37,104 nucleotides of DNA. Source: an uncultured Rubritalea sp. (GTDB taxonomy: Bacteria > Verrucomicrobiota > Verrucomicrobiia > Verrucomicrobiales > Akkermansiaceae). The stretch covers positions 1-37,104 of the forward strand of contig CALJOJ010000054.1 in NCBI GenBank assembly GCA_937981665.1, given 5' to 3'. Made by a program: the position numbers and the translations under genes. The notes under the pieces were generated by a model. It ran no database searches, was not told the DNA's origin, and saw only the letters and a list, made by a program, of their open reading frames with translations. Positions 3,840 through 36,156 of the stretch are shown here, in pieces (the stretch's first letter is position 1; every line of letters starts with the position of its first letter).

Positions 3840-4760
3840 ATGAAAACCGCACTCAGTCACCTAAAAACCAAGCCTGGGAGGGGCTGGCTCAGAAAGTGGC
3901 TGGTGCTCCTCACGGTGGCCTGCGGCATGATGATCTGCTATGCAACCGCTGTGATTGTGAATATAAAGAGCATCGAATTCCCGAATTCAGACGATCAGGT
4001 AGCATCGATGAAGACCTACGAAGCTGCTCTTTTTAAGCGGCTTCAGCGTGAGCATACCGCACTAGTGATTAACGGTGACTTTGAGAATGCTCGCATTGAG
4101 AACGGCGAATTCAAGGCAAAGGTTTCTTCGAATGAAGCGAGTGCCGGATCTGCGAGTCGCGGCGTTGCATTTTGCGTCATCCAGCCAGGATATTTTCTCA
4201 CTGCGGGGCATTGCGTAAATGGCGGCGAGGATATCTTCCTCGTGCCGCGAGGTCGGAAATACCATCTTACGGATCTTGAGCAATATCGAGCGCAGATAAT
4301 CTGGCAATCGTCGGTCGAGGACGATCTTGTGCTTCTCCAAGTTGCGGATCTGGACATGCCTCCCTTGCGCCTAGCCTCACAACTGCCTGAACGGGGAACG
4401 CCCGTATTTTCATTGGGCTACCGATTAGCGGCGGGAAAAGTGCTCGATGTGAAGCCCTCAAAGCATTCGGTGCGTGCCAACGGCTCGACCGATGCGATAA
4501 TTCCGGACATCATCCGCATGCGGAACAACGTGCCTCTTCTAAAGGGCGACAGTGGTTGCCCCCTTGTCAACAACAAGGGCGAGGTGATCGGGGTCTCTAT
4601 TTTTGGCACCTTGAAGGCTGACCTCCGCCAAGCCCTCTGCCTTCAGGGGGACATCCCGACTTTTACGGCAAGCTTCCTCTTTCAGCATGAACTCGCGGGA
4701 CTCCTGGTGAATATACCCGCAGATAGTCAGAGTCGTGCGAGCGGGCAGTCACTGCGGTAA
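3840..4760 (+). CDS. Membrane-anchored trypsin-like serine protease
   Basis: This 306-residue protein has a basic N-terminus followed by one hydrophobic segment at about 20-42, which could be an uncleaved anchor placing the rest in the periplasm. The S1-type catalytic triad is complete: His124 in TAGHC, an Asp at 161-162 in the EDDLVLL segment, and Ser238 in GDSGCPL. There is no PDZ domain, unlike HtrA. Cleavage target and partners are unknown. The ATG at 3840 is chosen because it keeps the anchor; an overlapping plus-strand frame from 3821 lacks motifs. Its codons look richer in G and C at third positions than the Bat cluster downstream, which may mean a different origin, though I have not measured it. 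Confidence 0.88.
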   Translation: MKTALSHLKTKPGRGWLRKWLVLLTVACGMMICYATAVIVNIKSIEFPNSDDQVASMKTYEAALFKRLQREHTALVINGDFENARIENGEFKAKVSSNEASAGSASRGVAFCVIQPGYFLTAGHCVNGGEDIFLVPRGRKYHLTDLEQYRAQIIWQSSVEDDLVLLQVADLDMPPLRLASQLPERGTPVFSLGYRLAAGKVLDVKPSKHSVRANGSTDAIIPDIIRMRNNVPLLKGDSGCPLVNNKGEVIGVSIFGTLKADLRQALCLQGDIPTFTASFLFQHELAGLLVNIPADSQSRASGQSLR

Positions 4761-7425: not shown

Positions 7426-8307
7426 ATGAAAAGACTACAGCATATCGCTCTAGCAGCATTACTCACAAGTACTGCCGCCGCACAAAAAACAGAAGACGCG
7501 CCGAGCCAAAAAGCGGTCCGCCCAGATGCTGTTGACCTACAGGTAATAAAACTGGATCTTAATAATCCAAAATCACCTCCAGAGGTCACCAAGGTAAAAT
7601 CACCTATTGTCTATCTCGGTATTTCGCCTGCTGCTACCAGTGAAGCAATAGCCTCTCAACTAGATATCACCGCTGGCTTTGGCTTATCTGTCCTGAACAA
7701 AGTAGACGCGGATAGTCCTGCTGGAAAAGCTGGGATTCAAAAACATGACGTACTCTATAAAATAGATGGTCAACTACTTGTAAACACTGATCAATTCATG
7801 TCCCTGTTAGCAACATTTAAAGTAGGTGACCAAATTGATTTAAGCTATTTCAGAAAAGGTAAGCTAGCTGTATCTAAAGTTACTCTAGAGAAAAGAAAGA
7901 CATTACCCGTAAGTCAGAATGGACTAGACCAAATGAACTTTACTATTTCTACGCATATACTGCCAGAATCTGGGATCACAGCGAATCTCATACCTGCGGA
8001 CGGATTGAAAATAAAGGACGGGGAGTTTCAACTAGATTTAACACTGTTAGACGGAGTTCAATCTAAAGTATTGACGCAGCATATTCTCAAAAAAATGATC
8101 CTCCTCAATGATGAAAACGGTACCTGCACACTAAAGCATACTAAAGAAGGTCTTCATCTCAAAGCACAAGACAAGCAAGGCAACGAAATCTTTAACGGAG
8201 TTATCGAACCAGAAACAGAATGGGCGAAAATCCCAGATAATCTCCTGCCTAGTGTTTCAAAAATGAAGAAGCTACTCATCAGAGCAGATAACAAGAAATC
8301 TAACTAA
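7426..8307 (+). CDS. Secreted PDZ-domain protein
   Basis: This 293-residue protein has a signal peptide (1-19, cleavage after AAA) and a PDZ domain at about 61-156, with the carboxylate-binding loop region YLGIS and the typical DSPAGKAGIQKHDVLYKIDG segment. The C-terminal 130 residues are beta-rich and unassigned. There is no protease domain, so it would bind peptides or protein C-termini in the periplasm without cutting them. It follows the presumed anti-sigma gene by 37 bp and is probably in the same transcript. Confidence 0.82.
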   Translation: MKRLQHIALAALLTSTAAAQKTEDAPSQKAVRPDAVDLQVIKLDLNNPKSPPEVTKVKSPIVYLGISPAATSEAIASQLDITAGFGLSVLNKVDADSPAGKAGIQKHDVLYKIDGQLLVNTDQFMSLLATFKVGDQIDLSYFRKGKLAVSKVTLEKRKTLPVSQNGLDQMNFTISTHILPESGITANLIPADGLKIKDGEFQLDLTLLDGVQSKVLTQHILKKMILLNDENGTCTLKHTKEGLHLKAQDKQGNEIFNGVIEPETEWAKIPDNLLPSVSKMKKLLIRADNKKSN

Positions 8308-8444: not shown

Positions 8445-9350
8445 ATGAAAACTACACATAAAATCATATCAGGAATCGCCGCCATTACTCTTTTAAATAG
8501 CTCAGCAGTAGCGAATGAAGTGCTAAGCTTCGGAGCTCAGACAGAAGCATTAACCACAGAAGCTTCAACTACTGCTGGTTTAAAGTCTGGCCAGGGCTTT
8601 GTTGTAATTGGAGTTAGAGAAGGTAGCGCAGCTGCTAAGCTTGGACTTGTTGAAGGAGATGTAGTGACAGCTTTAAATGGTAAGCCTGTTAACAACTTTG
8701 TAATGCTCAGTAATCTAATCGCAGCTATCGGCCAAGACAATGAAGACATTAGCTTAACTTGGACACGTGATGGAGTAAGCACTACAAAATCAGTTTCTGT
8801 TAGTGAGAAGATCTCACGTGAAGCATTCACTGCTGAATATGATACCTCCGGAGAAGGAAACGGAGAACAAGCCGTTCAACAAATAACAACTAAGAATCTT
8901 AGTTATGTAATCCAGATGGGACCTCAAGGAACTACTAGCTCAAGAATCATCGATGGCTATAGCTTCACGACAACACAGGATAAGACTACAAAAAAGCAGA
9001 TTACAAAAGTTACGAAATCTGAAACTAGTGAGCTAGTCTATGAAGGTGAAATCGATGCTGATGACCTATCAGCACTCCCCGCTGAGATTCAAGAGGCAGC
9101 AAAGCAGTTCGCTGATTCCGCATCAACATTTTCTATTACAGCAGAACGGAAAGACAAGCTGATGAAGGACGCTCTCAGTCAGCTTAAAGGAATAGATCTA
9201 GGTAATGGTCAGAAGCTCGACTTAAATCTCAACATAGGGAAGGGTGGTGTCATTCATTTAAATGGTGACAATCTATCAGAGACTAAAACAGAAAAGAATC
9301 TGGAAGACTTAGTTGAAGAAGTAAAAGAAGAAGCTAAGGAAGAGAAATAA
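8445..9350 (+). CDS. Secreted PDZ-domain protein with charged C-terminus
   Basis: This 301-residue protein has a signal peptide (1-23, cleavage after AVA), one PDZ domain at about 43-120 (GFVVIGVREGSAAAKLGL and GDVVTALNGKPV segments), and a long Thr/Ser/Lys-rich region ending in an acidic-basic helical tail rich in EEVKEEAKEEK. It lacks protease residues. Its own candidate ECF promoter lies upstream and a strong terminator follows, so it can be expressed separately from the MoxR genes. A periplasmic peptide-binding or sensing role is inferred. Confidence 0.8.
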   Translation: MKTTHKIISGIAAITLLNSSAVANEVLSFGAQTEALTTEASTTAGLKSGQGFVVIGVREGSAAAKLGLVEGDVVTALNGKPVNNFVMLSNLIAAIGQDNEDISLTWTRDGVSTTKSVSVSEKISREAFTAEYDTSGEGNGEQAVQQITTKNLSYVIQMGPQGTTSSRIIDGYSFTTTQDKTTKKQITKVTKSETSELVYEGEIDADDLSALPAEIQEAAKQFADSASTFSITAERKDKLMKDALSQLKGIDLGNGQKLDLNLNIGKGGVIHLNGDNLSETKTEKNLEDLVEEVKEEAKEEK

Positions 9351-9433: not shown

Positions 9434-10447
9434 ATGAATCTAGAAAATTTGCAAGCCGAGGTCACTGAGGCGACCCAATTTATACCTCACATTAAAGCCG
9501 AGATAAAGCGCGTTCTGATTGGCCAGAATGAGTTAGTTGACCGCATGTTAATCTGCCTTCTTACTAATAATCACCTACTTGTAGAAGGGCTACCTGGCTT
9601 AGCTAAGACTCTAGCTGTCACTACTCTTTCTCAGGTAATATCCGCAGACCATGCTCGTATCCAGTTCACCCCAGATCTTCTTCCCGCTGATGTAGTAGGT
9701 ACAAATATTTACAATCCGACTACTCAAAGTTTCTCTGCGAAAAAAGGCCCCGTTTTCACAAACCTCCTTCTCGCGGATGAAATCAACCGTGCACCCGCTA
9801 AGGTGCAGAGTGCTCTTCTAGAGGCGATGCAAGAGGCTCAATGTACTCTCGGCGGAGAGACCCACATCCTCCCTTCACCCTTCATGGTGATGGCGACACA
9901 AAACCCGCTAGATCAAGAGGGAACCTACCCGCTGCCTGAGGCGCAGATGGATCGATTCATGATGAAGGTATTAGTCGATTACCCCAAGCGCGAAGAAGAA
10001 CATGCAGTGCTCCGCCTTATGGGGTCTAGTGTAGGCTCGCCTAAAGCGGAGTCTGTCGTCTCTGTGGAAGCGATCACAGATGCTAGGTCTATCGTAGATC
10101 GCATTTATATAGACCCGAAGGTTGAAGAATACATTTTAGACATCGTGGCAGCGACTCGTCCTAGCTCAAATAGACAACTTTCTGAAAGACAAGAAGGTGT
10201 TGACTTATCATTCCTCAAACCACTCATTAGTGCGGGTGCATCACCACGAGCTACGCTTGCGATGGCTCGCGGAGCTAGAGCAATGGCGTTTATGGATGGC
10301 CGCGCTCACGTTCTCCCTGAAGATGTGAAAAGTATAGCTCCTGATATACTTAGACATCGCCTGATCCCTACTTATGAGGCTCAAGCTACACAAAAAGATT
10401 CGGATGTGATCATCACCCAGATCTTGGACACCCTTCATACGCCTTAA
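9434..10447 (+). CDS. MoxR-family AAA+ ATPase
   Basis: This 337-residue protein is a MoxR AAA+ ATPase, a chaperone-like enzyme that uses ATP to remodel or activate VWA-domain partners. Walker A is GLPGLAKT at 52-59, Walker B LLLADE at 111-116, sensor 1 ATQNP at 154-158 and the arginine region MDRF at 172-175. Length is normal for the family. It starts the MoxR-DUF58-Bat gene order seen in many bacteria and lies 22 bp before the DUF58 gene. The gene comes right after a strong terminator, so it needs its own promoter or read-through; I see no clear promoter in the short gap. Confidence 0.95.
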   Translation: MNLENLQAEVTEATQFIPHIKAEIKRVLIGQNELVDRMLICLLTNNHLLVEGLPGLAKTLAVTTLSQVISADHARIQFTPDLLPADVVGTNIYNPTTQSFSAKKGPVFTNLLLADEINRAPAKVQSALLEAMQEAQCTLGGETHILPSPFMVMATQNPLDQEGTYPLPEAQMDRFMMKVLVDYPKREEEHAVLRLMGSSVGSPKAESVVSVEAITDARSIVDRIYIDPKVEEYILDIVAATRPSSNRQLSERQEGVDLSFLKPLISAGASPRATLAMARGARAMAFMDGRAHVLPEDVKSIAPDILRHRLIPTYEAQATQKDSDVIITQILDTLHTP

Positions 10448-10469
10448 CTTTCATTTAGTCTATTTTTCA

Positions 10470-11354
10470 ATGTCAGAGGACAGCAATACAGCAGAGCTAA
10501 TGGAGAAGGTGCGTCGCATCGAGATCCGTACCCGTAAGATTGTAGAAAATCGGACGGGTGGAGCTTATCATTCTACCTTTAAGGGGCAAGGTATTGAGTT
10601 TAGTGAAGTAAGAGAATACTTAGAAGGTGACGATATCCGCGCTATTGATTGGAATGTCTCTGCTCGCATGGGGTCACCTTATATTAAGCTTTTTACTGAG
10701 GAACGTGAGCAGAATGTTTTTCTGCTCGTTGACCGCTCGGCTTCCAATGACTTTGGTAGTGGTGAGCAGACTAAAACTGAGTTACTCGCTGAGATAGCCG
10801 CTGTTCTTGCCTTTAGCGCTACTCATAATAAAGATAGAGTAGGGCTAATGCTCTATACTGACAAAGAAGAGCTACATCTTAAGCCAGGCAGGGGACATCA
10901 ACATGTTTTACGCATTGTCCGTGAGCTACTCGCTTTTAAAACAGAGTCTCCGAAAACCGACTTGAAACTAGGTCTAGAGCAGCTCCTCGCTAATAACTGC
11001 CGTAAAAGCGTCGTCTTCATATTGAGTGACCTCATCACAGAGAGCGAGTATGAGCAGCAACTTCGTGCTCTCAATATCCTACATGATGTGATCGTTATTC
11101 ATATTACCGACCCCCTTGAAGAGAGCCTTCCCAAGATACCAGGCATAAACATCGAAGATAAAGAAACAGGTGTGGTTACTAGACTATCACGCAGGCATGC
11201 TAAGAGTTTAGCAGAGCGAGCGAAAAAGTCTCGTAAGGAAGCGACTGCTATTTGTCAGCGTTCTGGAGCTGACATTGTCCACCTTTCAGCCTCAGAAGAT
11301 TACCTTCCAGAAATGATCGCCCTTTTTGAACGCCGCTCTAACAGACGCAGATGA
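10470..11354 (+). CDS. DUF58 protein with VWA-like domain
   Basis: This 294-residue cytoplasmic protein has the DUF58 signature from about 41 to 80: EFSEVREYLEGDDIRAIDW, then NVSAR and IKLFTEERE. A VWA-like fold follows, with the metal motif DRSAS at 88-92. DUF58 proteins are standard partners of MoxR ATPases and usually sit directly next to them, as here. The stop overlaps the next start (ATGA at 11351-11354), so the two are translationally coupled. Confidence 0.93.
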   Translation: MSEDSNTAELMEKVRRIEIRTRKIVENRTGGAYHSTFKGQGIEFSEVREYLEGDDIRAIDWNVSARMGSPYIKLFTEEREQNVFLLVDRSASNDFGSGEQTKTELLAEIAAVLAFSATHNKDRVGLMLYTDKEELHLKPGRGHQHVLRIVRELLAFKTESPKTDLKLGLEQLLANNCRKSVVFILSDLITESEYEQQLRALNILHDVIVIHITDPLEESLPKIPGINIEDKETGVVTRLSRRHAKSLAERAKKSRKEATAICQRSGADIVHLSASEDYLPEMIALFERRSNRRR

Positions 11355-12340
11355 AATCCATATGTAATATACTTAAAGTGATCGCGTTACTTCTATTCTT
11401 GGTCGTATGTGTGATTGGCTATAAATTCACCAGCGTCTGGCAATCTGATGTAACCTGTGAAGTTACCGAATCTACTTGGAAAGAAGATACTGTAAAATTT
11501 GGAGAAGAAGCGACACTGACTCTCAGACTACAACTACCTTGGCATAGAGAGTTCTCTTCTGCTGTGCCCTTAGGACTACCTGAGGGCTTTATCGTAATGA
11601 GAAATAAAGAGAGCCTCATAAAAAGAAGCTTAAACTGGAGAGGTTATCGTACATGGGATATCCAATGCTCAATGGTTCCTTTAAAGAATGAATTAGCTGA
11701 AAATAGTGAGATTAAGTTTCCTCTAGCATTAAAAAATCGGATGAAAAATAATATGGTAGCGGTAAAATTACCCAAACTAAATATTGAAGATCTCACTGAT
11801 ATACCAGAAACCCCAATCAATAAATTTACTAATCTAGACCCTGCCCTAGCAGTGGCTAACGAAACGCTAGATCACACACCACCAGTTGCTGACAAGCCAA
11901 ACTATTATCTTATCCTCGCTATCATACTCAGCGTAATAGTGATAGCTTATCTAATCTTCCTCAAGCTATCTAGAAAAACACCTGAGATACCAGTATGGGA
12001 AACAGCTCTAAAGCACCTTAGCGAACTTCAGTCTTCTAAGCCTGACTCGAACGAGGCATTCCACATCACATTGACGGATATTATCAAAACCTACACTGGA
12101 AAGCGCTACAGCTTTAAGGCTAACAGTGAATCTTCCACGGAATACATCGAGTCTCTAAAAACGATTGAAAGCCTAGATAGTAAACATAAGGACAGTCTCA
12201 CTTCTATCATTCGAGATGCGGATTTAGTTAAATTCGCAGCCGGCTCTACGAATGATGAGTTAAGAGATAGTTCGATCGATAATGCCCGTAACTTTATCGA
12301 ATCCACGGTTCCACAACAACTCACTAACAACCATGCCTGA
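11351..12340 (+). CDS. BatD-like membrane protein (MoxR/Bat cluster)
   Basis: This 329-residue protein has an N-terminal hydrophobic segment (8-24), a periplasmic beta-rich region (about 30-180), a transmembrane helix at about 186-207 (YYLILAIILSVIVIAYLIFL) and a cytoplasmic helical tail. That layout matches the small DUF4381/BatD-like proteins found between DUF58 and BatA genes. Sequence motifs are weak, so the family call leans on topology and position. It overlaps the DUF58 gene by 4 bases and the next gene by 8. Confidence 0.6.
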   Translation: MKSICNILKVIALLLFLVVCVIGYKFTSVWQSDVTCEVTESTWKEDTVKFGEEATLTLRLQLPWHREFSSAVPLGLPEGFIVMRNKESLIKRSLNWRGYRTWDIQCSMVPLKNELAENSEIKFPLALKNRMKNNMVAVKLPKLNIEDLTDIPETPINKFTNLDPALAVANETLDHTPPVADKPNYYLILAIILSVIVIAYLIFLKLSRKTPEIPVWETALKHLSELQSSKPDSNEAFHITLTDIIKTYTGKRYSFKANSESSTEYIESLKTIESLDSKHKDSLTSIIRDADLVKFAAGSTNDELRDSSIDNARNFIESTVPQQLTNNHA

Positions 12341-13352
12341 TTTCGCTGCACCTTTATTTCTCCTCTTGCTGGTGCCACTAGTTATTGGCTTCATTATCCG
12401 CTGGTTTAAACGACCTGCCGCGATAGCCGTATCAAGTGTGGCTTATTTTACTGGAGAGTCTTCCTCAAGAAGAACATGGATTACCACCCGTCATGTTGCT
12501 TTATTTTTGGAATGCCTAGCTGGAGTACTGATTGTCTTCTGTCTGGCTCGACCCCAGCAGGGAATCGAAATAACTCCTGAGACTAAGGCAGGAACTGACA
12601 TCATGCTAGTCCTAGACTTATCAAAAAGCATGGAACTAGCAGACCCTAAAAGAGGGATGACACGTGATGAAGCTGAAATAGCAATAGAGAAAGGAACTCT
12701 TCAAGACCGCTTGGAAGTCTCTAAAGAAAAGCTGATCGACTTCATTAATAGACGTTCTAATGACCGTATTGGTTTAGCCGTTTTCAGTACTGACTCATAC
12801 ACTGTATCTCCTCCCACCCTTGATCATGATTACCTGATAGGACAAATAAAAACTATCAACCATAGGACTCTGAGAAAAACGGCTACTAATATAGCCGCTG
12901 GACTCACAGCTGGAATCAATACTTTGCTAAACGAGACTGAATCTAGGCAGACGATCATACTAGTAACAGATGGAAGTAATAGTGTAGAATACCACATCAC
13001 ACCGCTCGAGGCTGCTTCAATAGCGCTAAAGAAGAATATAGTGATTCACACGATTGCTGTAGGTAGTGAACTGGCTGTTAAGAAACAGGGGTATAATGCT
13101 AAACTTGATAGTTTTGATACTTCTATTCTTAAGCAAATAGCGGTAAAGTCGAAGGGCTCATTTTTCCGAGTGAGAGACTCCCAGGCGTTTGAAGAAGTCC
13201 TCACTTCTATTGAAGAACTAGAGAAGCAAACTTATAATAAACCCGCTCTTATATTTCAAAAAGACCTGTATCCACCTTACCTCATCTCCGCCGCATTGCT
13301 GCTACTGCTCGCCACTTTAGTGAGATTTATTCTCTTTCCAGAAATTTATTAA
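12333..13352 (+). CDS. batA: BatA-like VWA membrane protein
   Basis: I choose the ATG at 12333 (MPDFAAPLFLLLLVP), giving 339 residues and an 8-base overlap with the previous gene. The longer frame from 12282 would add 17 residues that BatA proteins lack. Transmembrane helices lie at about 6-22 and 55-71, a VWA domain follows with MIDAS motif DLSKS at 95-99, and a last helix sits near 312-332. This is the BatA/aerotolerance layout: a membrane-tethered VWA protein, thought to bind other Bat proteins. Family function in oxygen or envelope stress tolerance is described in Bacteroides and Leptospira but poorly defined. Confidence 0.9.
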   Translation: MPDFAAPLFLLLLVPLVIGFIIRWFKRPAAIAVSSVAYFTGESSSRRTWITTRHVALFLECLAGVLIVFCLARPQQGIEITPETKAGTDIMLVLDLSKSMELADPKRGMTRDEAEIAIEKGTLQDRLEVSKEKLIDFINRRSNDRIGLAVFSTDSYTVSPPTLDHDYLIGQIKTINHRTLRKTATNIAAGLTAGINTLLNETESRQTIILVTDGSNSVEYHITPLEAASIALKKNIVIHTIAVGSELAVKKQGYNAKLDSFDTSILKQIAVKSKGSFFRVRDSQAFEEVLTSIEELEKQTYNKPALIFQKDLYPPYLISAALLLLLATLVRFILFPEIY

Positions 13353-13381
13353 CCTCGTCACTTTTCATATAAATATTTTCT

Positions 13382-15976
13382 ATGTCTTTTCATTCTTCAT
13401 ATCTGTTACTTTGGCTTGTACTGGGCTTAGTGATATCTCTGACTACTATCTTATGGGGTATATTTCATCGTAAGCGCATTATTAGACGCTTATCATCTGC
13501 TCCTAATGGTGCTAGTTCTTCACTGGTCAGCAACGCTGGACCGGTCAGAGGTCTTATCCAGCTTATCTGTTTAGTTATTGCTCTTATCACCCTCGCCTTT
13601 GCTCTGCTTAGACCATCGAGCGGAAGGGAAATAACTGAGTACCAACTGCCGGCTAAAAATATAGTCATCCTCTTAGACGTTTCTAAAAGTATGGGAGTAG
13701 TTGATATCAATGGTGTATCTAGAATGGATATGGCTAAAGTCTGGTTAAAGCAATTTATAGCTAACCGCCCATATGACCGAATCGCTTTAGTGACTTTCTC
13801 TGGAATCGCCTTACCTGAATGCCCTTTGACTCGTGACCGTAGTATCTTAAATAAGATGATTGATTTTCAGGAAGCTGGTATTTTACCCATAGGAGGAACT
13901 GACCTTGAAGGCGCTCTTGACCAGGCTCGTAAGTTCCTAGGAAAACACTTAGAACTAGGTTCATCTGTGATGCTCCTTTCTGATGGAGACGACGTAACAG
14001 GTGACCCTAGGAAAGCCGCTAGCTTCTTTACAGAGGCTGAGGTCCCGTTAAATACCATCGCTATAGGAAACCCAAGTCAGGTCGGTGTGATCCCTGCGGA
14101 TGTGATAGGTAAAGCTGGCGCGAGAATAACGAGCCAAGCTGACCCAAGCATCCTAGCAGAACTATCCGATGCCACGAATGGCCTGCACATCGCTATTTCT
14201 GAGCAGTCTCAGCTAGAGAGCTCTAGTGATAGAGTACACGAGGCTATTGACTCCATATCAGTAGATGGGGAAAATATATTTAACGAAGTATTTAGTCGTC
14301 CTATCGACATCTACCAGTACCCACTAACCATTACTATTCTTATGCTACTTATCAGAATGTTGCTCTCAGTCCGGACCTCACAATGGCATAAACTCTGCCC
14401 AGGCGTAGCGGTCCTGTTCATATTCTTCTCGTTATTTATTAATAAAGCTCATGCTCAACTAGACGCTACTAGCTCTGATCCAGAAGAGAAGAGTCATCAG
14501 ACACTCATTGACTATGATGAAGCAAAAGTACTTGCTGATGAACAAGATAAGCCGCTAGTCATTCTCTTTACCGGCAGTGACTGGTCTAAGTCTAGTATCG
14601 CATTCCAGAGAGAAATCTATCCGCACGAAGTTTTTCAAAACTGGGTGAAGCAGAAGGTAGTGCTACTCCATGCCGACTTACCTAGAAAAGCGATCGATCC
14701 AAAACTACGCGAACAAAACAGAGCTCTCGCTAAAAAATATGAAGTGAGTGCTTACCCAGCTATCATATTTATAAAGCCCCATTCAGATACTGTGATAGGT
14801 CGTCTCAAGCATGACAGCAGAGGACCCGCTTCATGGGTAGAGCGTGCACAAGAACTGCTAAAGGGTAACAAAGGCGATGAGTATAGCTCCAGTTCCATCG
14901 TGGATCTGAGTATGGAAGATTCATTAAGTAATCTAGAGAGAGCTATTAAAAATTTCGACCAAGCGCTGAAACTAGAAGCTACAAATCCTGAGCTAGTGCT
15001 TACGTCTAAAGATCAGTTCCGTATCGTCATAGATTTACTAGAACAAGCAGCAGGTTTAGCTGATGAAGACCATCCCGAGATTATGATCCCACCTATTCAT
15101 AAACTCGGCGTACTTCATCATTTACGCGGTATGAGTTTATTCAGCGTGATCATTAGCGACGAGAACAACTTCAATTTCAAAAAAAGAACGAAGCAATGCT
15201 ATGAGGCTCTGGCATATCTAGAAGCAGGATATGATCATTATACAATAGCACTTTCTTATGAGACAAATAATGAAAACCTCACGCGAAATATCGCGCTCAT
15301 CATGTCTGACATGGAAAAGCTCAAGCAACTTATAGAGCTATTCAAGATATATTCGGATACCATACAGGAGACCTTCGATGCTCTGAATACAGAAAAATGG
15401 ATGCTTAAAGAACAGCAGAACTTTGTAACGACTTCCAGAGAAGTGAATGATCGCAAAATCAATGATGCCGCAACGTTGATCAACAAACTCATCACATCTG
15501 CAAAGAAACTAAATTATCATAAACTCGAAGACCTTATTAAGGCTGGTGAAAGCATCGCTAAATCTCCAGTGCCTCATAAAGAGCGAAGCCTAGTAAGCTC
15601 TGAAGCCATTTTACAAGAAACCTTAGATTATCTAATCCCACCTTTTCAAGTAAATTCAAATGGGAAGAAGAAAAGAAAAGGAGGCTCTAGATCTGGAGCA
15701 CAGCAGAATCCAGAAGGTAGTCAAGCAGAGGAAGATGAAGGTAGTCAAGCAGAGGAAGATGAAGATAGTGAAGAAGAAAAAGATGATAGCAGTGCTAATG
15801 AAGAAGAGTCTTCAGATGATTCTGAAGAACTTGATGATGACACGAGAGACTTTAGCCAATCCGAAGCTGATTCTGCGCTGAAAAAGGCTGATGAACAAAA
15901 CGGAACGTTACGAGACCACGCAATAGAAAAACTTAAGAAAGGCGCTAAAAAGCCTTATGGTTCTCAGGATCGTTAA
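13382..15976 (+). CDS. BatB-thioredoxin-like-BatC fusion protein
   Basis: This 864-residue protein joins parts that are usually separate. Residues 1-330 are BatB: two N-terminal helices, a VWA domain with MIDAS motif DVSKS at 99-103, and a helix near 312-330. At 340-360 lies a signal-peptide-like segment ending NKAHA. Residues 376-493 form a thioredoxin-like domain (LVILFTGSDW, cis-Pro in SAYPAIIF), but the usual CxxC is SKSS at 402-405, so it cannot do dithiol chemistry. The rest is helical with a highly acidic Glu/Asp/Ser tail and a basic end, like BatC. An exact 24-nt tandem duplication (15716-15763) lies in the acidic part. Function would be a scaffold in the membrane Bat complex (inference). 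Confidence 0.85.
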   Translation: MSFHSSYLLLWLVLGLVISLTTILWGIFHRKRIIRRLSSAPNGASSSLVSNAGPVRGLIQLICLVIALITLAFALLRPSSGREITEYQLPAKNIVILLDVSKSMGVVDINGVSRMDMAKVWLKQFIANRPYDRIALVTFSGIALPECPLTRDRSILNKMIDFQEAGILPIGGTDLEGALDQARKFLGKHLELGSSVMLLSDGDDVTGDPRKAASFFTEAEVPLNTIAIGNPSQVGVIPADVIGKAGARITSQADPSILAELSDATNGLHIAISEQSQLESSSDRVHEAIDSISVDGENIFNEVFSRPIDIYQYPLTITILMLLIRMLLSVRTSQWHKLCPGVAVLFIFFSLFINKAHAQLDATSSDPEEKSHQTLIDYDEAKVLADEQDKPLVILFTGSDWSKSSIAFQREIYPHEVFQNWVKQKVVLLHADLPRKAIDPKLREQNRALAKKYEVSAYPAIIFIKPHSDTVIGRLKHDSRGPASWVERAQELLKGNKGDEYSSSSIVDLSMEDSLSNLERAIKNFDQALKLEATNPELVLTSKDQFRIVIDLLEQAAGLADEDHPEIMIPPIHKLGVLHHLRGMSLFSVIISDENNFNFKKRTKQCYEALAYLEAGYDHYTIALSYETNNENLTRNIALIMSDMEKLKQLIELFKIYSDTIQETFDALNTEKWMLKEQQNFVTTSREVNDRKINDAATLINKLITSAKKLNYHKLEDLIKAGESIAKSPVPHKERSLVSSEAILQETLDYLIPPFQVNSNGKKKRKGGSRSGAQQNPEGSQAEEDEGSQAEEDEDSEEEKDDSSANEEESSDDSEELDDDTRDFSQSEADSALKKADEQNGTLRDHAIEKLKKGAKKPYGSQDR

Positions 15977-16016
15977 AAATGAGGCTGTAATCATCCCTCT
16001 AAGGAACTAAATATTC

Positions 16017-18392
16017 ATGAAATCTTACTATAATCCATCTAATGATTCTAATCTCTTATCTAGAATATTCAGTGTAAGCTGCTTAGTAGCGCTATGCATC
16101 TTATTTCATTTGGGTGCGATTTCTAATGCTGGTGCAGAAGTCGACTACACTCTTAAATACCGTACTATTGGGCTGATTGTAGATCAGAAATGTGCTATCC
16201 GTATTTCTAGTAAAGAAAATATCGTAATAAAGGATTTACCTGATCACCCTAATATCACTTGGCTTAAGGAGCAGCATATTACAAAAGATGGTGAACAAAG
16301 AACATATATCCTCTTTGTCCCTCATCATAAAGGCACCTTGATACTCCCTAACATCCCAGTTAAGATCGGAAGTAAAGACCTGCTGCTACCGATTGATCCA
16401 TTCACTGTGAGTGAAAACCTTCTTCCTGCGGACTCAGTTTTCATTCGCGAACTATGGAATGGAAAAGTAGGCCTCCCCAAAGTTGCACGTAGCGGCCAAA
16501 TCTTTGATCTCGACCTCTTGGTCTATGTAAAGAAGAACGAGCAAGATATCACAATAATCGAGCCTAAGCTAGATATTCCCTCAGCTCGTTGGTTAAAAAT
16601 AGGCTCTCCTTCTGTAAATATGAGCCGTATCGTAAGAAGTTCTTTCTTTAGTTTTGGCTCTAAGAATTACGAACAAATAGACACCACTTATAAGGGAGAA
16701 GAATACTCAGTTAGACGCTATAAACTTCGTTTTTCAGTAGGCACACAAAAAGAGCTGAAAGGCATCATAGAATACTCTGTGAGTTATGGAGGCGGTGAAC
16801 GTACATTTTTAAATCATGTTAATATACCCATCAGTAAATTACCTCCTCTCCCAGAAGATGATAACCTCACTCATACTAATCTTGTCGGTAATTGGATCTT
16901 TAAAGCAGACCCACTCGAAAAACCTATCGTTAAAGGCGAGCCCTTTACGCTTAAGCTGCAGATGGAAGGCACGGGTGACCCCTACCTTCTCGCGGAACTA
17001 CCTCTAGCAGTTCCTGGGTTTAAATCTATGGGCTACGAGGTCAAAAAAGATAGTGAGTCTAGTGTCGATTACTGGCGAGGCACCATTATTCAAAAACTAT
17101 TACCCACAGGAGAGAGTCAGTCATACCCAGAGCTAAACTTAACCTCATTTGATCCCGCTCTTAATGACTGGAAAATACATAACGTGCAACCTGCTCTAAC
17201 TGTCGAAGGAGCCGATGAAGCACTACTAGAAACAGGACTAACCGATACCTTCCACGATCAGGAAGAGAATGCTGGTAAGGTAATCGCCCGTCCTGTGTTG
17301 AATAATCTATCGCTCATGGTTTTTCTCGTGATCGGGATTGCTCCATTACTTCCGTTTATTTTCCGCTTCATCAGTGAGTTACTTAAGAAACGAAAGTCTG
17401 AGAAAAATACTCTTCGTAAAAAGTTTAAAGTACATTGTAAGAATTTAGATAGAGCTTCCTGGAATGATGCTCATCAAGCCAAGGTAGATCTGGAAGCAGG
17501 AAGCCTCCCATTGTTACGCACATACTTGAAGCTCCCTAGCGGCAGCTCGGTAAAAGAAATATCTACAGCTCTGGAAGGTTCTCAAGAAGAAAAGGAACTC
17601 TCGGGCATACTCTCCGAATATGTGAATGCCAGCTATACTGGAAAACAATCAATACCAGATCCACAACGGGTATCGGCACTCTTGAAAAAGATTAGCATCA
17701 CAATATCCTCACTATTTCTTATCTTACCACAAGTGAGAGCAGCTAACCTGGATGAGGCGAATGAGCTATATAGAGCCAAGCAATTCTCGCAAGCTATCGT
17801 CGAGTACGAAAAGCTGATTGAAGAACAGCCTAACCACGTAAATCTACAATATAACCTAGCCAATGCGTTAGCTAAAAATGGCCAACCACACAAGGCTAGA
17901 GCAACTTATCACACGACACTATTGTTAGATCCATTTCATAAAAAGGCAAAGGAGAACCTAAATATCCTCGTTGAGAAACTAGGTGAAAACAGGCTCCCTG
18001 GTTCTCATGTCTTCAACATGCGTCCAGATCAGTACTTAACTCTAGCTGCCATAATCTGGTTACTAGCATGGATATACTTTTCACTCAGCCGCATCATGAA
18101 AGGCTTACCAACTTGGCCGTTCTACCTGTGTCTATTTCTATGTGTCCCTCTACTCATTGGCACTGCATTTTGGAAACTTAATACGAGCTACCAAGCCAAC
18201 CAATATATGGTCACCACTACTGAACTCTTACGTGAAAAAACTCCTGGCTTCCGTGACTTAAAACGTCTCCCATTAGCATCAGGTACTATTGTTACTGCAA
18301 CTAAATTTTCCGAAAACAATACGCATATCTTAGTAGAATCAGCAGACACCAAGTTCTGGCTCCCGCTCGATAAAATCACCCCGATTTGGTAA
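16017..18392 (+). CDS. BatD-BatE fusion membrane protein
   Basis: This 791-residue protein begins with a signal peptide (about 12-40) and a large beta-rich BatD-type periplasmic region to about 400, then a transmembrane helix (430-452) and a cytoplasmic-type helical part. At 560-575 lies an internal hydrophobic segment ending PQVRA, like a signal peptide. TPR motifs follow at about 577-650 (LDEANELYRAKQFSQAIVEYEKL and a second repeat), then two helices (673-690, 699-717) and a C-terminal SH3-like domain (about 730-791), the layout of BatE. The natural reading is that batD and batE were joined with the BatE signal peptide kept inside. It follows the BatB fusion by 40 bp. Confidence 0.85.
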   Translation: MKSYYNPSNDSNLLSRIFSVSCLVALCILFHLGAISNAGAEVDYTLKYRTIGLIVDQKCAIRISSKENIVIKDLPDHPNITWLKEQHITKDGEQRTYILFVPHHKGTLILPNIPVKIGSKDLLLPIDPFTVSENLLPADSVFIRELWNGKVGLPKVARSGQIFDLDLLVYVKKNEQDITIIEPKLDIPSARWLKIGSPSVNMSRIVRSSFFSFGSKNYEQIDTTYKGEEYSVRRYKLRFSVGTQKELKGIIEYSVSYGGGERTFLNHVNIPISKLPPLPEDDNLTHTNLVGNWIFKADPLEKPIVKGEPFTLKLQMEGTGDPYLLAELPLAVPGFKSMGYEVKKDSESSVDYWRGTIIQKLLPTGESQSYPELNLTSFDPALNDWKIHNVQPALTVEGADEALLETGLTDTFHDQEENAGKVIARPVLNNLSLMVFLVIGIAPLLPFIFRFISELLKKRKSEKNTLRKKFKVHCKNLDRASWNDAHQAKVDLEAGSLPLLRTYLKLPSGSSVKEISTALEGSQEEKELSGILSEYVNASYTGKQSIPDPQRVSALLKKISITISSLFLILPQVRAANLDEANELYRAKQFSQAIVEYEKLIEEQPNHVNLQYNLANALAKNGQPHKARATYHTTLLLDPFHKKAKENLNILVEKLGENRLPGSHVFNMRPDQYLTLAAIIWLLAWIYFSLSRIMKGLPTWPFYLCLFLCVPLLIGTAFWKLNTSYQANQYMVTTTELLREKTPGFRDLKRLPLASGTIVTATKFSENNTHILVESADTKFWLPLDKITPIW

Positions 18393-18410: not shown

Positions 18411-20135
18411 ATGAATCTTAAATCCCACCATTCCACACCTCGTTACACTCAAATAGCTTCTTGTCTATCTGCTCTATGCATTACGCTAATGACTCCTCTC
18501 GTCATGGGAGAAGAGAGCAGCCCGAGCAAACCAGATTTCCACGCGATCACTGAGATGGAAGATGAGGCATTAAAAATAGAAGCCAATTTACGCTCTAGCC
18601 TCTGCAAAGTTTGTCGAGATGGTAGCAGCGCATTCAATACTGGCACATTAATTAGCAAGGACGGCTACGTCTTGACTGCTGAAATATTTAACCCGTCAGA
18701 GGACAATCTGCCATACTTCATCGTATTAGATAATGGTAAGCGCATCTCAGCTAAAACCGTATACGAGCCTAACAAGGGCGTGTTACTACTCAAAGTAGAA
18801 CTCCCTGAAAATAGTGATCTCGTCCCCGCATCATTTACAGCTGTAGAGGAAACTAAATTGCCAATGGGTTCATGGCACCTTTATGCTTCATGGAGTCCCT
18901 CACCCATCGAAGATGAGGTCGCTAGATTAAGCTTTGCCCGTATCCTACGTGAAGGAGCTAAGAGCTCATCACTCTTCACCATTGATGCTGCCACAACGAG
19001 CCGAGGTGCTCCACTTTTTGACCTCAACGGTAATTTAGTAGCCATCATTGGTCGTAGTATAAAAGGTAAAATCGTATCCAGCTGCATTCCTGTAACTAAA
19101 ATCTATAAGGAATGGGATATATTCAAAGAACTAGTTGATCAGACTGATACAGCCGACGCCTATCAGCCAGTAGATGCAGACATAGCCGTTCTACCTACTT
19201 CGAGAAAAGGTGAAACTTACCGTAAAGATCTAGCTGATTACCTTAACATAGAATTTACTAACTCATCGCTAGTAGCAATTTTTGAAGACACTAAGCCTCT
19301 AATCTTTGGAACTGTAATCAGTAAAGACGGGATGATCCTCAGTAAGGCAAGTGAACTTGGCTCTGACCTTACTTGTACAGTAAACGGCAAATATTATCCT
19401 GCTACACTATTAGCAACTGATGAAGAAACTGATCTAGCGATTCTTAAAATAGACGCTACAGATCTAGTTCCTATTGAATGGAGTGACAGGCCTCTAAGCT
19501 CAGGAACATGGCTATACTCAGGAGTGCCAGATACCACTAATAACCTTGATGCTGCCAGCATGGGAAGCATCAGTCACCTAGCTTCGGTCCCGCGTAATCA
19601 CCGGTCTATCGACAGCCCTGAAGACTATACAGGTATAGGAGTAGTAATTGAACATAGTTCTAATGCATGCACGATAGCAGCTATACTTCCTAATAGTCCG
19701 ATTGAAAAAACAGAGGCTCAGAGGCTGGATACGATCACCCACATTGACGGTAAAGAAGTGGCTGATAGAAGAGCACTGACTAAGATCTTAGCAACGCATA
19801 AGTCAGGAGATAAAGTTAAACTGACTCTCAAGCGAGAAGACACCATAATTCATGTAGAAGTATCTCTTACCGAAAGTTTCCCGAATACCAGCCAAGCAAA
19901 CTCCACATACTCATATGTTCTTTCCCCAAGTGCCCGCGCTTATGGTTTTAAGAAGATTATCATTCATGACTCCCCCGTAGAGTATTGGCAGTGTGGAGGA
20001 CCTATACACAACTTAAAAGGCGAAGCCTTGGGTATGAACATCGCCCGTCACAGTAGAGGTCTTACTTATGCTCTTCCAGTAGAGGTCATCCGTGACGCGG
20101 TAACACGTATGCTTTCTAAATCTCTAAAATTTTAA
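18411..20135 (+). CDS. HtrA-like double pseudo-protease with inserted PDZ
   Basis: This 574-residue secreted protein (hydrophobic segment about 13-32) carries two degenerate trypsin-like domains. In the first (about 60-230) the His and Asp sites are lost and the Ser site GDSGGP reads TSRGAP, with Arg198 at the Ser position. The second begins near 285. His is replaced by Ser314 (SKAS), Asp341 is present (EETDLAILKID), then a PDZ domain intrudes (about 405-485). The C-terminal strand resumes with QCGGPIHNLKGEALGMNIAR, so Cys528 stands where the catalytic Ser belongs. It should bind substrates or regulate the next protein but not cut by the usual mechanism. It follows the Bat fusion by 18 bp. 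Confidence 0.8.
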   Translation: MNLKSHHSTPRYTQIASCLSALCITLMTPLVMGEESSPSKPDFHAITEMEDEALKIEANLRSSLCKVCRDGSSAFNTGTLISKDGYVLTAEIFNPSEDNLPYFIVLDNGKRISAKTVYEPNKGVLLLKVELPENSDLVPASFTAVEETKLPMGSWHLYASWSPSPIEDEVARLSFARILREGAKSSSLFTIDAATTSRGAPLFDLNGNLVAIIGRSIKGKIVSSCIPVTKIYKEWDIFKELVDQTDTADAYQPVDADIAVLPTSRKGETYRKDLADYLNIEFTNSSLVAIFEDTKPLIFGTVISKDGMILSKASELGSDLTCTVNGKYYPATLLATDEETDLAILKIDATDLVPIEWSDRPLSSGTWLYSGVPDTTNNLDAASMGSISHLASVPRNHRSIDSPEDYTGIGVVIEHSSNACTIAAILPNSPIEKTEAQRLDTITHIDGKEVADRRALTKILATHKSGDKVKLTLKREDTIIHVEVSLTESFPNTSQANSTYSYVLSPSARAYGFKKIIIHDSPVEYWQCGGPIHNLKGEALGMNIARHSRGLTYALPVEVIRDAVTRMLSKSLKF

Positions 20136-20156
20136 ACCCCAAGCTTTTTTATTCAT

Positions 20157-22331
20157 ATGAAAAAAATCTGTATCAGCCTCCTCATACTCAACTTTGTATT
20201 AGCTCTTTCTGCCTCTACATCATTAGCGAATACGCCTATAGAAAGTATGATTAACCTACAAGATAGAGTAGAGCTTCTAAAAGAAAATCTCGTAGCCTCC
20301 ACTGTAGCTATACAGCGAGTAGGATCACCTGGAAGTGGAAGTGGAGTTATCATCTCGGAGAGCGGTCTCATTATGACTGCGGGCCATGTCATAGCAAAGC
20401 CAGGAGAACAGCTCAATGTGATCTTAGCAGACGGCTCAGTACGCTCCGCAACTGCACTTGGAGTATCATCCACGGACTCAGGAATGGCTCAAATAGATGC
20501 TCCTGGCCCCTTCCCATTCTGCCCTGTTGCTAAAGAAGTAGATTACGAAATAAACGATTGGGTACTAGCTATAGGTCACCCTGGAGGGCCTCAATTAGGT
20601 CGACCAGCCCCTATCCGCTTGGGCAAAATCATCATGCTAAAAACGGCAAGAATAGTTACCAGCTGTAAAATCATCTCTGGTGATTCAGGTGGTCCATTAT
20701 TTAATATGAATGGTGAAGTCATTGGCATTAACTCCGCGATCAGCTACCCGTGGAATAACAACTTCCATGTGTCTCTGGATATTTTCATTAAAGAATGGGA
20801 TCAATTACTAGCCAGTGAACATATAAATCCAAACGCTGAGAATCCGGTCATAAATGACTATAGAGACCCGATCGGTAGCCAAAGGCAACAAGCTCGTGAA
20901 ATACTGAGGCAACAAGCCCTAAAAGGAAACTCTTTCGCTACGGCCTATCTAGAAAGACCAGATTATCTCTACCCTCATGAAATTCAGGATATCATTCATC
21001 AATGGGGAGAACTCCAAGATGAAGAAGATTCTCTAACAAAAGAAAGCCTTCTTGGTATCCACTTCAGACTCGATGCCAGTGAAGCAAAAATTTCCGAGAT
21101 CTCAGCAAAAGGTCCTGCTGATCTAGCTGGTCTTAAAGCAGGAGATATAATTCATTCACTCAATGGCAAAAAATATCAAAAACTGACTAACTTGATCACT
21201 GCGATAAAGTCTCTCAGTACTGAAAAACAAAGCACGATTGAAGTCCTGCGTGAAGGTGTGAAATTACAATTAGAAATCACACCAGTGACACGATATCCCC
21301 GTACTACATTAAATAGAGCAGTTGATGTCGTTGACAATATGATGCTAATGGCTAAATCTATCGAGATAGAAAAAGAGTGCTTCCAAGACCCTCTATTCGA
21401 GGAATGTTGCCTAGCTTCTAAACCATCAGTAGTAGAGATCCTCCGTAACGATAAGCTCGTTGGACTCGGTGTAGTTGTATCTGAAACAGGAGAAATACTC
21501 ACTAAAGCGAGTCTATTAGACTCCGCTTCTTCTGTGGGAGAGTATAAATATAGTATCCGCTACGATGCTAAAACTGAAGCTGCAGAGTTAGCCTCTAGAG
21601 ATGAATCCACCGACTTGGCTCTCATAAAGACAACAGTAAAAGTAAGCGATCTTACCGCCATAGAATGGAGTGATACAGTGCCTACCTCAGGAACCTTAAC
21701 TGCATGTCCAGGTCATGACGGTCAACTCCTCGCTCATGGAATAGTCAGCCGCCCACTTCATATCAGCAAAAAACCAGTAGATGAACGCATTCTTAGCGCT
21801 ACCTCTGGTTCTTATTTAGGTTTACGTCTTGATGTAGATCATGACGAGCCTCTGGTAATGAATGTCGACCCTCAGAGCCCTGCAGCTATAGCTGGAGCGC
21901 TTGAGGGTGATATGATCATCGCTGCCAATGACTCCACAGTTGAAAACGCACAAGACCTGAGCAAGATCATCTCAACATTTCGCTCAGGCGATAAAATCAA
22001 GCTATCTCTAATGCGTGGTGACAAGACTGTCTTTATCTACCCCATCTTGAAAAATGCGATAGCTCAACCCGCAACGAACAACTTACTCACAGATTCCTTT
22101 CTCCATAACTTATCTAAAAAAGGAGGAGATCTTAGTAAACGGCGTGATGATTTCCCTCTCTGTATCTATCACGACAGTAACACCTCACCTAAGCAGTGCG
22201 GTGGTCCACTCATAGGCACTGATGGTAAAGCCTACGGCATTAACATTGCCAGAAACAATAGATTCAGGTCACTAGCACTACCTGCATCACTAGTAAAACA
22301 GACTCTAAAGGAGCTACGTGGAAAACAGTAG
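20157..22331 (+). CDS. HtrA-like serine protease with second, split domain
   Basis: This 724-residue protein has a signal peptide (1-24, cleavage after SLA). The first trypsin-like domain (about 45-215) has an intact triad: His77 (TAGHV), Asp107 and Ser177 (GDSGGPLF), so it should be an active periplasmic protease. A first PDZ domain lies at about 295-375. A second protease-like domain starts near 423, with Ser452 in the His position and Asp486 retained. It is interrupted by a second PDZ domain (about 550-628) and ends with QCGGPLIGTDGKAYGINIAR, placing Cys681 at the Ser site. The second half matches the preceding protein's second half in layout, so the pair arose by duplication. Confidence 0.85.
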   Translation: MKKICISLLILNFVLALSASTSLANTPIESMINLQDRVELLKENLVASTVAIQRVGSPGSGSGVIISESGLIMTAGHVIAKPGEQLNVILADGSVRSATALGVSSTDSGMAQIDAPGPFPFCPVAKEVDYEINDWVLAIGHPGGPQLGRPAPIRLGKIIMLKTARIVTSCKIISGDSGGPLFNMNGEVIGINSAISYPWNNNFHVSLDIFIKEWDQLLASEHINPNAENPVINDYRDPIGSQRQQAREILRQQALKGNSFATAYLERPDYLYPHEIQDIIHQWGELQDEEDSLTKESLLGIHFRLDASEAKISEISAKGPADLAGLKAGDIIHSLNGKKYQKLTNLITAIKSLSTEKQSTIEVLREGVKLQLEITPVTRYPRTTLNRAVDVVDNMMLMAKSIEIEKECFQDPLFEECCLASKPSVVEILRNDKLVGLGVVVSETGEILTKASLLDSASSVGEYKYSIRYDAKTEAAELASRDESTDLALIKTTVKVSDLTAIEWSDTVPTSGTLTACPGHDGQLLAHGIVSRPLHISKKPVDERILSATSGSYLGLRLDVDHDEPLVMNVDPQSPAAIAGALEGDMIIAANDSTVENAQDLSKIISTFRSGDKIKLSLMRGDKTVFIYPILKNAIAQPATNNLLTDSFLHNLSKKGGDLSKRRDDFPLCIYHDSNTSPKQCGGPLIGTDGKAYGINIARNNRFRSLALPASLVKQTLKELRGKQ

Positions 22332-31166: not shown

Positions 31167-31925
31167 ATGAAAACTAGCGCTAAATCCATCTTCACCACTA
31201 TCCTCGGAGTTCTTCTCCTAGGACCAGTAGTGAGCGTGGTGCAAGCGCAGCAGCTTTCAGAAAATGAAGTGGGAGCCGATGCTCGCGACGTTCAGAAACT
31301 ACAGGTAGAAATAAGAAACTTGAAGCGAAAGAACGAAAGCATAAACAAGGCACTTATCGAGTCCAGACAACAGACTCAGAGTGCTAAAGTTAAGCTCAAC
31401 AAAATCCGCTTGGAACTCGAAGCACTTGGAACCTACCCACTAGGGTCAGATGACGAGCGCCTCATCCAGGCAGTGACAAACCGCAACGTGCTCGAGGAGC
31501 GTATCGCTAAGCTGGAAACAGCAGCCACGACTCTCACCGCTGAGATTAGAGAATACCTCAAGCACGCCTTTGTCGCTGACGACCAAAAACGTCTCACTCT
31601 TGAAATTAAATTAAGAGAGCTAGACGTAACACTGGGAATCATCGACAAGCCTCGTCCACAGATAGATATTGGTACTCTCTTTGATGCCAAAATCATCGGT
31701 ATAGATGGCCAATCTGGCACTCTCATACTGAATGCTGGGGAGAAGCAAGAGGTGCGCATAGGAATGACATTCCGAATCCTGCGCGGTAAGAGCCAAATAG
31801 CAGAAGCAAGGATTGCTGAGGTAAGACCAGAAATAGCTGGAGCCTTAGTTACCCGACTCGTAGACACTAATAACGCGGTCCGCCCCGGCGACATCGCATC
31901 AATCAAGACACAAATTAAACAATAA
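31167..31925 (+). CDS. Secreted coiled-coil protein inside the S10 operon
   Basis: This 252-residue protein has a signal peptide (about 1-27, cleavage after VQA), a coiled coil from about 38 to 155 with heptad-like Leu/Ile spacing, and a compact beta-rich C-terminal domain (about 170-248; DAKIIGIDGQSGTLILNAG and MTFRILRGKSQIAEARIAEV segments) resembling small SH3-like barrels. I recognise no named family. It sits 24 bp after rpsS and 12 bp before rplV in the same orientation, so it is very likely co-transcribed with the ribosomal genes, although its product is exported. Its role is unknown; coupling an envelope protein to growth rate is a guess. Confidence 0.8.
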   Translation: MKTSAKSIFTTILGVLLLGPVVSVVQAQQLSENEVGADARDVQKLQVEIRNLKRKNESINKALIESRQQTQSAKVKLNKIRLELEALGTYPLGSDDERLIQAVTNRNVLEERIAKLETAATTLTAEIREYLKHAFVADDQKRLTLEIKLRELDVTLGIIDKPRPQIDIGTLFDAKIIGIDGQSGTLILNAGEKQEVRIGMTFRILRGKSQIAEARIAEVRPEIAGALVTRLVDTNNAVRPGDIASIKTQIKQ

Positions 31926-35006: not shown

Positions 35007-35202
35007 TCTTCCTTACCACATCGTTCTAATAAAAGCGGTATCGTGTCTCACGGTTGGCTCCAACGTTGGCACAACTGCAGGAAATCAGGCGCGCAACGGA
35101 GGCGACGGATGACCGAGACAGGGAAAGAAACAACACAAACGCACACGCACACGCACACGAAGGACATGAGCACCGACGATTCGATGTCGCCATCACACTC
35201 AC

Positions 35203-36035
35203 GGGTATCGCTTCGTCGTGCATGTAGGCGAGGGCGGATGCCACACCAGCGGCTTGTCGGAGGGCTTCCTTCATCGGAAACCAAGACTTGACGCTGGTGC
35301 GCACCAACCAGGTGGACCTCTCCGGACCGTCCTTGGTCCCTATCGCCGTGGACAGCGTGCCTCCTGAGAGCAGCTCCGAGGCCACGAACAACCCCCCCTG
35401 CGGGTGCGTACAGCACCCGTCCGCCAGCGTTAAGACATTCGACAGAGGTAGGACGTTGCAGGAGAGGCATTGAGTGAGCCACCACTAGAATGCTATAATC
35501 GGGAAGCTGGGACAGGGTTGGGGTGAAATGATTCATCTCTAGGCGAAGATATTGAAACCAGAAACAAGGATTTCGGGCAGGCCTACACCGGCAGAAGGGC
35601 GAAACAGGTACAGCTAGCATAAGACAACCATGCGCATGTGTTTCAAAAAGAAATGTTGAACAGTGAAGATATCCCCACTGTTGGTGGTTCGTCTGTCAGG
35701 AGCAAACAGTACCGGTTTTTCTCTCGGGAGGGATGTCTGATCAACGGTTTCACGGCTGTATCGCAGTACAGCCGTGAGGCGCAGCGCGGATTTTCTTCAC
35801 AATCAACGCAGAAAAAAATTAAGCTCTTCGCGGCAGTTTCGCGTGTGTCACCTCTGGCATCTGGCCAGCCCCCGCTAGCCTGGCGATGTGTGGGTGGTGC
35901 AGGAGCTTCATGAGTTGCAGCTCTCTTTCCAGGTCCTCTGCATCGGCTTCAGAATCGTTGCCGGCCTTAAGAGCCTTGATTGCGACGTTCCGGCCGCCGC
36001 CGCCCCCGCCTCCACCCAGTGTGCCACGGAAGCAG
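35203..36035 (-). CDS. Eukaryotic protein kinase, two exons (partial)
   Basis: Exon 36035-35852 encodes a kinase N-lobe: CFRGTL, a Gly run, RNVAIKALKAG with the ATP-binding Lys, an alpha-C segment LERELQLM, and LLHHPHIARLAGAGQMPE. It ends at a GT donor (35851-35850). After a 454-bp intron closing with CAG, exon 35397-35203 continues in phase 0: GGLFVASELLSGGTL (hinge), then ALRQAAGVASALAYMHDEAIP (alpha-E), ending at a perfect GTGAGT donor (35202-35197). The next exon, which should carry HRD and DFG, is not found before the bacterial junction. The upstream exon with the start of the Gly loop is also missing or unrecognised. Family resembles tyrosine-kinase-like kinases; the call is firm, the species is not. 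Confidence 0.82.
35398..35851 (-). other. Spliceosomal intron in the kinase gene
   Basis: The intron begins GTGACA at 35851 and ends CAG at 35400-35398 on the minus strand. Joining its flanks gives an unbroken kinase reading frame (MPE joined to GGLFVASE). It contains a perfect inverted repeat, CACGGCTGTA (35751-35760) and TACAGCCGTG (35767-35776), with a 6-nt centre. Confidence 0.75.
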
Positions 36036-36156
36036 CTGTACGTTTCAGTCAGGTATCGCAGACACAGCCATGGCTTGGGTGGTCAAGAGCAGAAAAATCC
36101 GAAGAAAAACCTGTGGCACTCGTTTGCAAATAGATGCTGTAGCGTGCGTGTTCCAA

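Follow-up and report, generated by a model that had tools for sequence, protein, structure and literature searches.

A stretch of 37,104 nucleotides from an uncultured Rubritalea sp. (contig CALJOJ010000054.1; hereafter the window) encodes 2 neighboring proteins, P0001 and P0002, in which the C-terminal half is an HtrA-type protease domain divided by a PDZ domain and devoid of the catalytic Ser and His. These split domains belong to a family of single origin, and nearly all its members adjoin, or are fused to, an active-type HtrA protease. P0001 (18411..20135, + strand, 574 amino acids) and P0002 (20157..22331, + strand, 724 amino acids) are both intact open reading frames (ORFs), lie on the same strand, and are separated by 21 bp. 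P0001 consists of a hydrophobic N-terminus, a dead trypsin-like half, and the split pseudo-HtrA with its nested PDZ domain, while P0002 contains an active-type HtrA with a PDZ domain of its own, fused to the split pseudo-HtrA with its nested PDZ domain.

A PDZ domain nested in an HtrA protease fold

In P0001, the first piece of the split domain (19263..19604, + strand, about amino acids 285–398) comprises strands 1–8 and holds Lys312, Ser314 at the site of the catalytic His (19350-19352), and Asp341 (19431-19433). It is followed by the nested PDZ domain (19629..19868, + strand, about amino acids 407–486) and then by the second piece (19944..20132, + strand, amino acids 512–574: IIHDSPVEYWQCGGP), which includes Cys528 (19992-19994). 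In P0002, the first piece (21420..21791, + strand, about amino acids 422–545) with Ser452 at the His site (21510-21512) and Asp486 (21612-21614) precedes the nested PDZ domain (21795..22076, + strand, about amino acids 547–640) and the second piece (22149..22328, + strand, amino acids 665–724: DFPLCIYHDSNTSPKQCGGP), which contains Cys681 (22197-22199). Pfam detects a single PDZ domain in P0001 (amino acids 408–486) and 2 in P0002. Both C-terminal halves therefore share the order strands 1–8, PDZ domain, QCGGP strand, and remainder of barrel 2. An earlier note, made from the sequence alone, had described this matching layout in the 2 adjacent proteins, and the numbers it gave for Ser314, Cys528, Ser452, and Cys681 are all correct.

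Profile comparisons located the PDZ domain within the protease domain. On the C-terminal half of P0001, only positions 3–109 of the 144 positions of the Trypsin_2 profile precede the PDZ domain, and the remainder follows it. When a split-domain profile was compared with canonical HtrA partners, these matched in 3 pieces in the order N (about 5–110), C (about 248–302), and PDZ (about 130–217), whereas the split-domain relatives matched the same profile as a single piece in the order N-PDZ-C (80 of 80). A single residue of a DegP-like chain, exactly at loop L3, marks a jump of the profile from position 130 to position 241. A profile built from 8 members, both window domains among them, and from which the PDZ domain had been removed matched HtrA structures in one continuous stretch (best E 1e-27, profile positions 18–167); with the PDZ domain retained, HtrA structures matched as separate, out-of-order pieces.

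Single C-terminal halves of P0001 and P0002 were modeled with AlphaFold without templates, with mean predicted local distance difference test (pLDDT) values of 84.2 and 79.1, respectively. Residues 1–298 of the P0001 model superposed on a single HtrA protease domain with a Z-score of 24.0 (184 residues, 2.4 Å), and residues 1–309 of the P0002 model with a Z-score of 22.1 (172 residues, 2.4 Å). A DegS construct lacking its PDZ domain superposed on the P0001 model as well (Z 23.5, 179 of 195 residues, 2.1 Å). Plain Foldseek template modeling scores were low (0.28–0.35), probably because those alignments span about 270–400 whole-chain columns with differing domain order, and restricting the comparison to the protease part with VIA-align resolved them. 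A joint alignment for the whole of P0002 was set aside because the split-domain rows fell on the N-terminal half. Because the models superpose on one HtrA domain, including that of the PDZ-less DegS, we conclude that the PDZ domain is an insertion that, between strands 8 and 9, takes the place of the sensor loop L3. In both models, the CGGP strand is predicted to complete the second barrel across the inserted PDZ domain. The proposal that a PDZ domain divides the protease domain is thus borne out by the predicted structures and the PDZ-removed profile, which also rule out that the CGGP segment derives from an unrelated domain. A circular permutation is ruled out too, because strands 1–8 and 9–12 hold their canonical order around the PDZ domain. 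Structure and sequence therefore place the split domain in the HtrA-type double-barrel chymotrypsin fold, but its PDZ domain sits at L3 and not C-terminal to the protease domain as in HtrA.

The active site of this fold is dead throughout the family. In 109 aligned relatives, the nucleophile site is occupied by Val (46), Met (20), Cys (14), Thr (12), Ile (9), Gln (4), Glu (2), Asn (1), or Ala (1), and never by Ser, and the Asp is kept in 110 of 110 aligned members. Of the 118 non-redundant members of a wider set, 114 have Ser at the His site, 2 have Glu, and 2 have Thr. Only L125, a fusion of reversed order, carries a nucleophile-site Ser in this set, within an STSP motif; the His-Asp-Ser triad of HtrA is missing, since a Ser in that place with an intact GG motif does not occur. 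Loss of the Ser nucleophile and of the His, with retention of the Asp, are the family-wide constants, and the dead site noticed in the window proteins extends well beyond them.

A family linked to active HtrA proteases

To define the extent of the family, we searched 289 Verrucomicrobiota genomes with the profile. Full-length matches (E below 1e-55) were found in the family of the window organism, in a second family of that order (f4), and in one family outside the class (f38). In the other genomes of the phylum, nearly all matches were partial and resembled ordinary HtrA, with one weak full-length match (G236, f38). A scan of 84,980 species genomes, which used a degenerate pattern from a 6-row alignment, kept the best 80 loci, and is the sole sampling of other phyla, returned Rubritalea, Roseibacillus, Haloferula, Luteolibacter, and Akkermansiaceae records. 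These 80 loci are biased to free-standing copies, and the phylum-wide matches were added to counter this bias; in total, 118 non-redundant members were gathered. The range of the family probably includes the gut bacterium Akkermansia. In a tree built with the PDZ domain removed from 28 split domains, 28 active partners, and 15 ordinary HtrAs, all 28 split domains form one clade (support 1.0), and the active partners group away from the 15 ordinary HtrAs (support 0.63). The split-domain family thus has a single origin. No curated Pfam or NCBIfam model covers the split domain as one unit in the copies searched, and searches of the open-access literature yielded no description of a PDZ domain inserted in an HtrA or trypsin-like domain, or of HtrA pseudoproteases in Verrucomicrobia. 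On that literature, we provisionally regard the family as newly described.

Active HtrA proteases, a linkage absent from the earlier note, accompany almost every copy. Among 135 split-domain ORFs (128 distinct sequences), 119 have a GDSGG-type HtrA as their direct same-strand neighbor, and another 13 form one protein with such an HtrA. By inspection, L149 is also paired, L111 lies at a contig end, and L152 is a true orphan. Altogether, an adjoining or fused active HtrA is present in 133 of 134 testable copies. The HtrA comes first in 11 of the 13 fusions and the split domain in the other 2 (L125 and L154, one place fetched twice); in L125 (6568-8439), the split pseudo-HtrA precedes the active HtrA, and the 2 fusion orders lie on separate branches of the tree. 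In the 80-locus set, the partner is directly upstream in 79 of the 79 copies with room for it and carries GDSGGP in 78, and 59 pairs overlap, a number that is approximate because start codons were picked automatically. By our own estimate, chance adjacency is well under 1% per copy because HtrA genes are few per genome. The repeated fusion and the near-universal pairing point to joint action of the dead domain with the active HtrA. In the fusions L119, L120, and L124, the HtrA and the split domain are separated by long linkers made up of repeated helix-like segments.

In P0002, the active-type partner is the N-terminal half (20337..20729, + strand, amino acids 61–191), which has an intact-looking triad formed by His77 (TAGHV), Asp107, and Ser177 (GDSGGP) and is followed, in the canonical place after the protease, by the first PDZ domain (21048..21278, + strand, amino acids 298–374; Pfam). 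P0001 has instead an N-terminal Trypsin_2 domain (18639..19046, + strand, amino acids 77–212) that is predicted to be inactive from the SRGAP at its Ser motif. This half is dead also in the P0001 orthologue L121, where the motif reads TAGSP. The N-termini of both window proteins are hydrophobic as judged by eye, that of P0001 being signal-like.

The explanation that we favor, as somewhat more probable than all others together, is that the split domain serves the active HtrA beside it or fused to it as a non-catalytic PDZ subunit, either by supplying substrate or by controlling the enzyme. Split subunit and active protease would belong to one periplasmic assembly, possibly a mixed HtrA oligomer, and the ligands of the nested PDZ domain would be peptides or exposed C-termini from damaged envelope proteins. 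The active partner would then receive either the binding signal or the substrate itself, because the PDZ domain stands in place of L3, and in DegS and DegP this loop transmits the signal of the PDZ domain to the active-site loops of the adjacent subunit (PMC11642142). P0002 would unite the 2 partners in one chain, and P0001, from the same operon, would be a version in which both halves are dead. More tentatively, the active HtrA may be governed by a dedicated dead subunit whose PDZ domain has been relocated into L3, with the ligand acting at the allosteric relay itself, which would amount to an order-wide two-component enzyme. A pseudoprotease without an active site of its own, MamO, is required for proteolysis by MamE (PMC4794232).

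Several points weigh against a controlling subunit. Even between MamO and MamE, a physical interaction had gone undetected (PMC4794232). Association of the 2 partners, ligand binding, and activation of the HtrA are steps that we infer. Linkage and fusion indicate functional coupling and not a physical complex, and our structure models cover single C-terminal halves. One copy, L152, is an orphan, and substrate holding by the split domain need not involve contact with the protease. The strongest rival is a free-standing holdase, in line with the substrate-holding chaperone suggested in the earlier note, in which the dead barrel and the nested PDZ domain bind unfolded envelope proteins on their own and the HtrA is only co-expressed for the same task. 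HtrA proteins double as chaperones, and a dead site in a domain that retains its fold and PDZ domain fits such a role. However, repeated fusions in both orders and the linkage in 133 of 134 copies favor a shared complex over shared regulation alone, and we consider the holdase unlikely, though a serious candidate.

Residues of the dead site and genomic surroundings

The earlier note had seen in the Cys of the QCGGP strand a conserved residue and a likely target of selection for a non-proteolytic role. As a thiol or redox lock, this residue at the nucleophile position would be a sensor, a metal ligand, or a covalent trap. Both window proteins have the Cys, and its distribution over the tree is clustered (7 parsimony changes versus at least 13 in shuffles): all 5 members of the P0002-like fusion clade carry it (P0002, L119, L120, L124, and L131; support 0.93), as do all 3 of a second fusion clade (L127, L128, and L132). 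A thiol switch calls for a Cys conserved family-wide, but the Cys occurs in only 14 of 109 and 18 of 118 members, Val or Met being the usual residues, and Asn takes its place in L121, where the orthologue of P0001 lies in the matching operon of another family. Homologues without the Cys were what the earlier note had named as a refutation, and these alignments rule out the Cys as a defining feature. Moreover, no second Cys is kept across the family alignment, and the Cys cannot account for the nested layout because this layout is common to all lineages. We therefore hold a general thiol lock to be improbable, although the P0002-like fusion lineage, with its fixed Cys, could have a thiol or redox function. 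Hence, the idea of long-term selection for a non-proteolytic role is supported, whereas the Cys as its target is not, being fixed in some lineages only; the layout itself is unaffected by this result.

P0002, L119, and L120 have another Cys in an FPxC motif, 12 residues ahead of the QCGGP or DCGGP Cys. The linker between the PDZ domain and strand 9 contains a strongly kept RNDxMSGxxSxRRxxFP motif, apparently specific to the split family in its alignment, which may contact the dead active site.

A Lys lies 2 residues before the His site and is kept, as is the Asp, in 110 of 110 aligned members, in 109 of which the His site is Ser (Thr in the remaining one). This invariance is unusual for a dead site and could reflect rewired catalysis, in which the Lys, the His-replacing Ser, and the Asp would form a new active center. 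A buried Lys-Asp salt bridge would give the same pattern, however, and in the wider set the His-site residue is Glu or Thr in 4 members, while 3 members lack the Lys; we regard a new active center as highly improbable. A degenerate relic or annotation artefact, that is, a decaying functionless duplicate as the lost catalytic residues might suggest, is already contradicted by the single origin, the conserved synteny, the intact ORFs in more than 100 members, and a 43-row alignment in which 20 columns are invariant and the mean column identity is 48%, and hardly deserves credence.

P0001 and P0002 belong to an operon whose upstream genes (9434..18392, all + strand) encode a MoxR-type AAA protein (9434-10447), a DUF58/VWA protein (10470-11354), an unassigned protein (11351-12340), a BatA-like VWA protein (12282-13352; Bat, Bacteroides aerotolerance), a VWA protein with a thioredoxin-like part (13382-15976), and a TPR/BatD-like protein (16017-18392; BatD assigned by eye). 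The order MoxR, DUF58, BatA, VWA, TPR, P0001, and P0002 is kept in L121, from another family of the same order. The thioredoxin-like motif of the VWA protein reads SDWSKSS and lacks CxxC, which makes it another dead-enzyme fold in a Bat-type operon. Directly upstream of MoxR are 2 adjacent small proteins that look PDZ-only (7426-8307 and 8445-9350), and the matching place in L121 is taken by a related PDZ protein.

Elsewhere in the window, a further trypsin-like protein of 306 amino acids (3840-4760) has GDSGCP, in which the Ser is kept and the second following Gly is replaced by Cys. Inside the ribosomal operon, just before rplV, a 252-amino acid coiled-coil-like protein (31167-31925) has a hydrophobic N-terminus and no Pfam match, and ribosomal protein L22 (31938-32609) carries a C-terminal extension that is helix-hairpin-helix-like (HHH_5, 26.2 bits, just under the cut-off). 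Past rplX, which ends near 35007, the ribosomal operon stops; the G+C fraction rises from about 0.45 to 0.52–0.56 in positions 35008-37104, where a simple repeat of the CACACG type occurs and no bacterial genes can be clearly discerned. This contig end looks chimeric or contaminated, possibly of eukaryotic origin.

Comparison with known systems

HtrA regulation is usually explained as PDZ signaling to L3 from outside. In the split family, sensor and relay would be merged in one nested unit, located in a dead protein that accompanies an active HtrA, which makes the family a natural test of L3 as the entry point for PDZ signals. If true, a dead subunit with a relocated PDZ domain would be a new way to build PDZ control into an HtrA machine. 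The family also adds to the bacterial pseudoproteases and is present in Akkermansia-like genomes, a genus of wide interest.

The split domain shares with HtrA, DegP, DegS, and DegQ (MEROPS S1C) both fold and sequence (Z 24.0 and 22.1; E 1e-27) and an HtrA-type PDZ domain, but differs from them in having this domain inside the protease domain at L3 rather than after it, and in the loss of the His and Ser. It is thus HtrA by fold and sequence and not a canonical HtrA protease by triad and PDZ placement. Trimer-based oligomers and export to the periplasm or envelope are further hallmarks of HtrA proteases. PDZ domains are carried within the protease chain also by the S41 C-terminal processing proteases CtpB and Prc and by the S2P protease RseP, where a PDZ domain within or beside the catalytic fold can gate activity; these have other protease folds, in contrast to the inactive, chymotrypsin-fold split family. 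The window copies, and those of the second family, resemble Bat operons with MoxR in lying directly downstream of MoxR, DUF58, BatA, VWA, and TPR genes, but the other split-HtrA copies with wider context inspected lie outside such an operon, and searches of the open-access literature found no paper that names a Bat operon together with an HtrA of the split kind.

MamO and LimO of magnetotactic bacteria offer the closest parallel. They have a dead HtrA fold encoded with an active HtrA, MamE, whose proteolysis needs it (PMC4794232), and the split family likewise combines an HtrA fold, lost catalytic residues, and an active HtrA encoded alongside. They differ in that MamO has a C-terminal TauE-like domain, which domain searches did not find in P0001 or P0002, both of which end with the barrel. 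In addition, a nested PDZ domain is not reported for MamO in the passages of PMC4794232 consulted, a surface di-histidine metal site is a further mark of MamO-like pseudoproteases, and the split family is one Verrucomicrobiota lineage. By analogy, the split family appears, among known systems, to work most like MamO.

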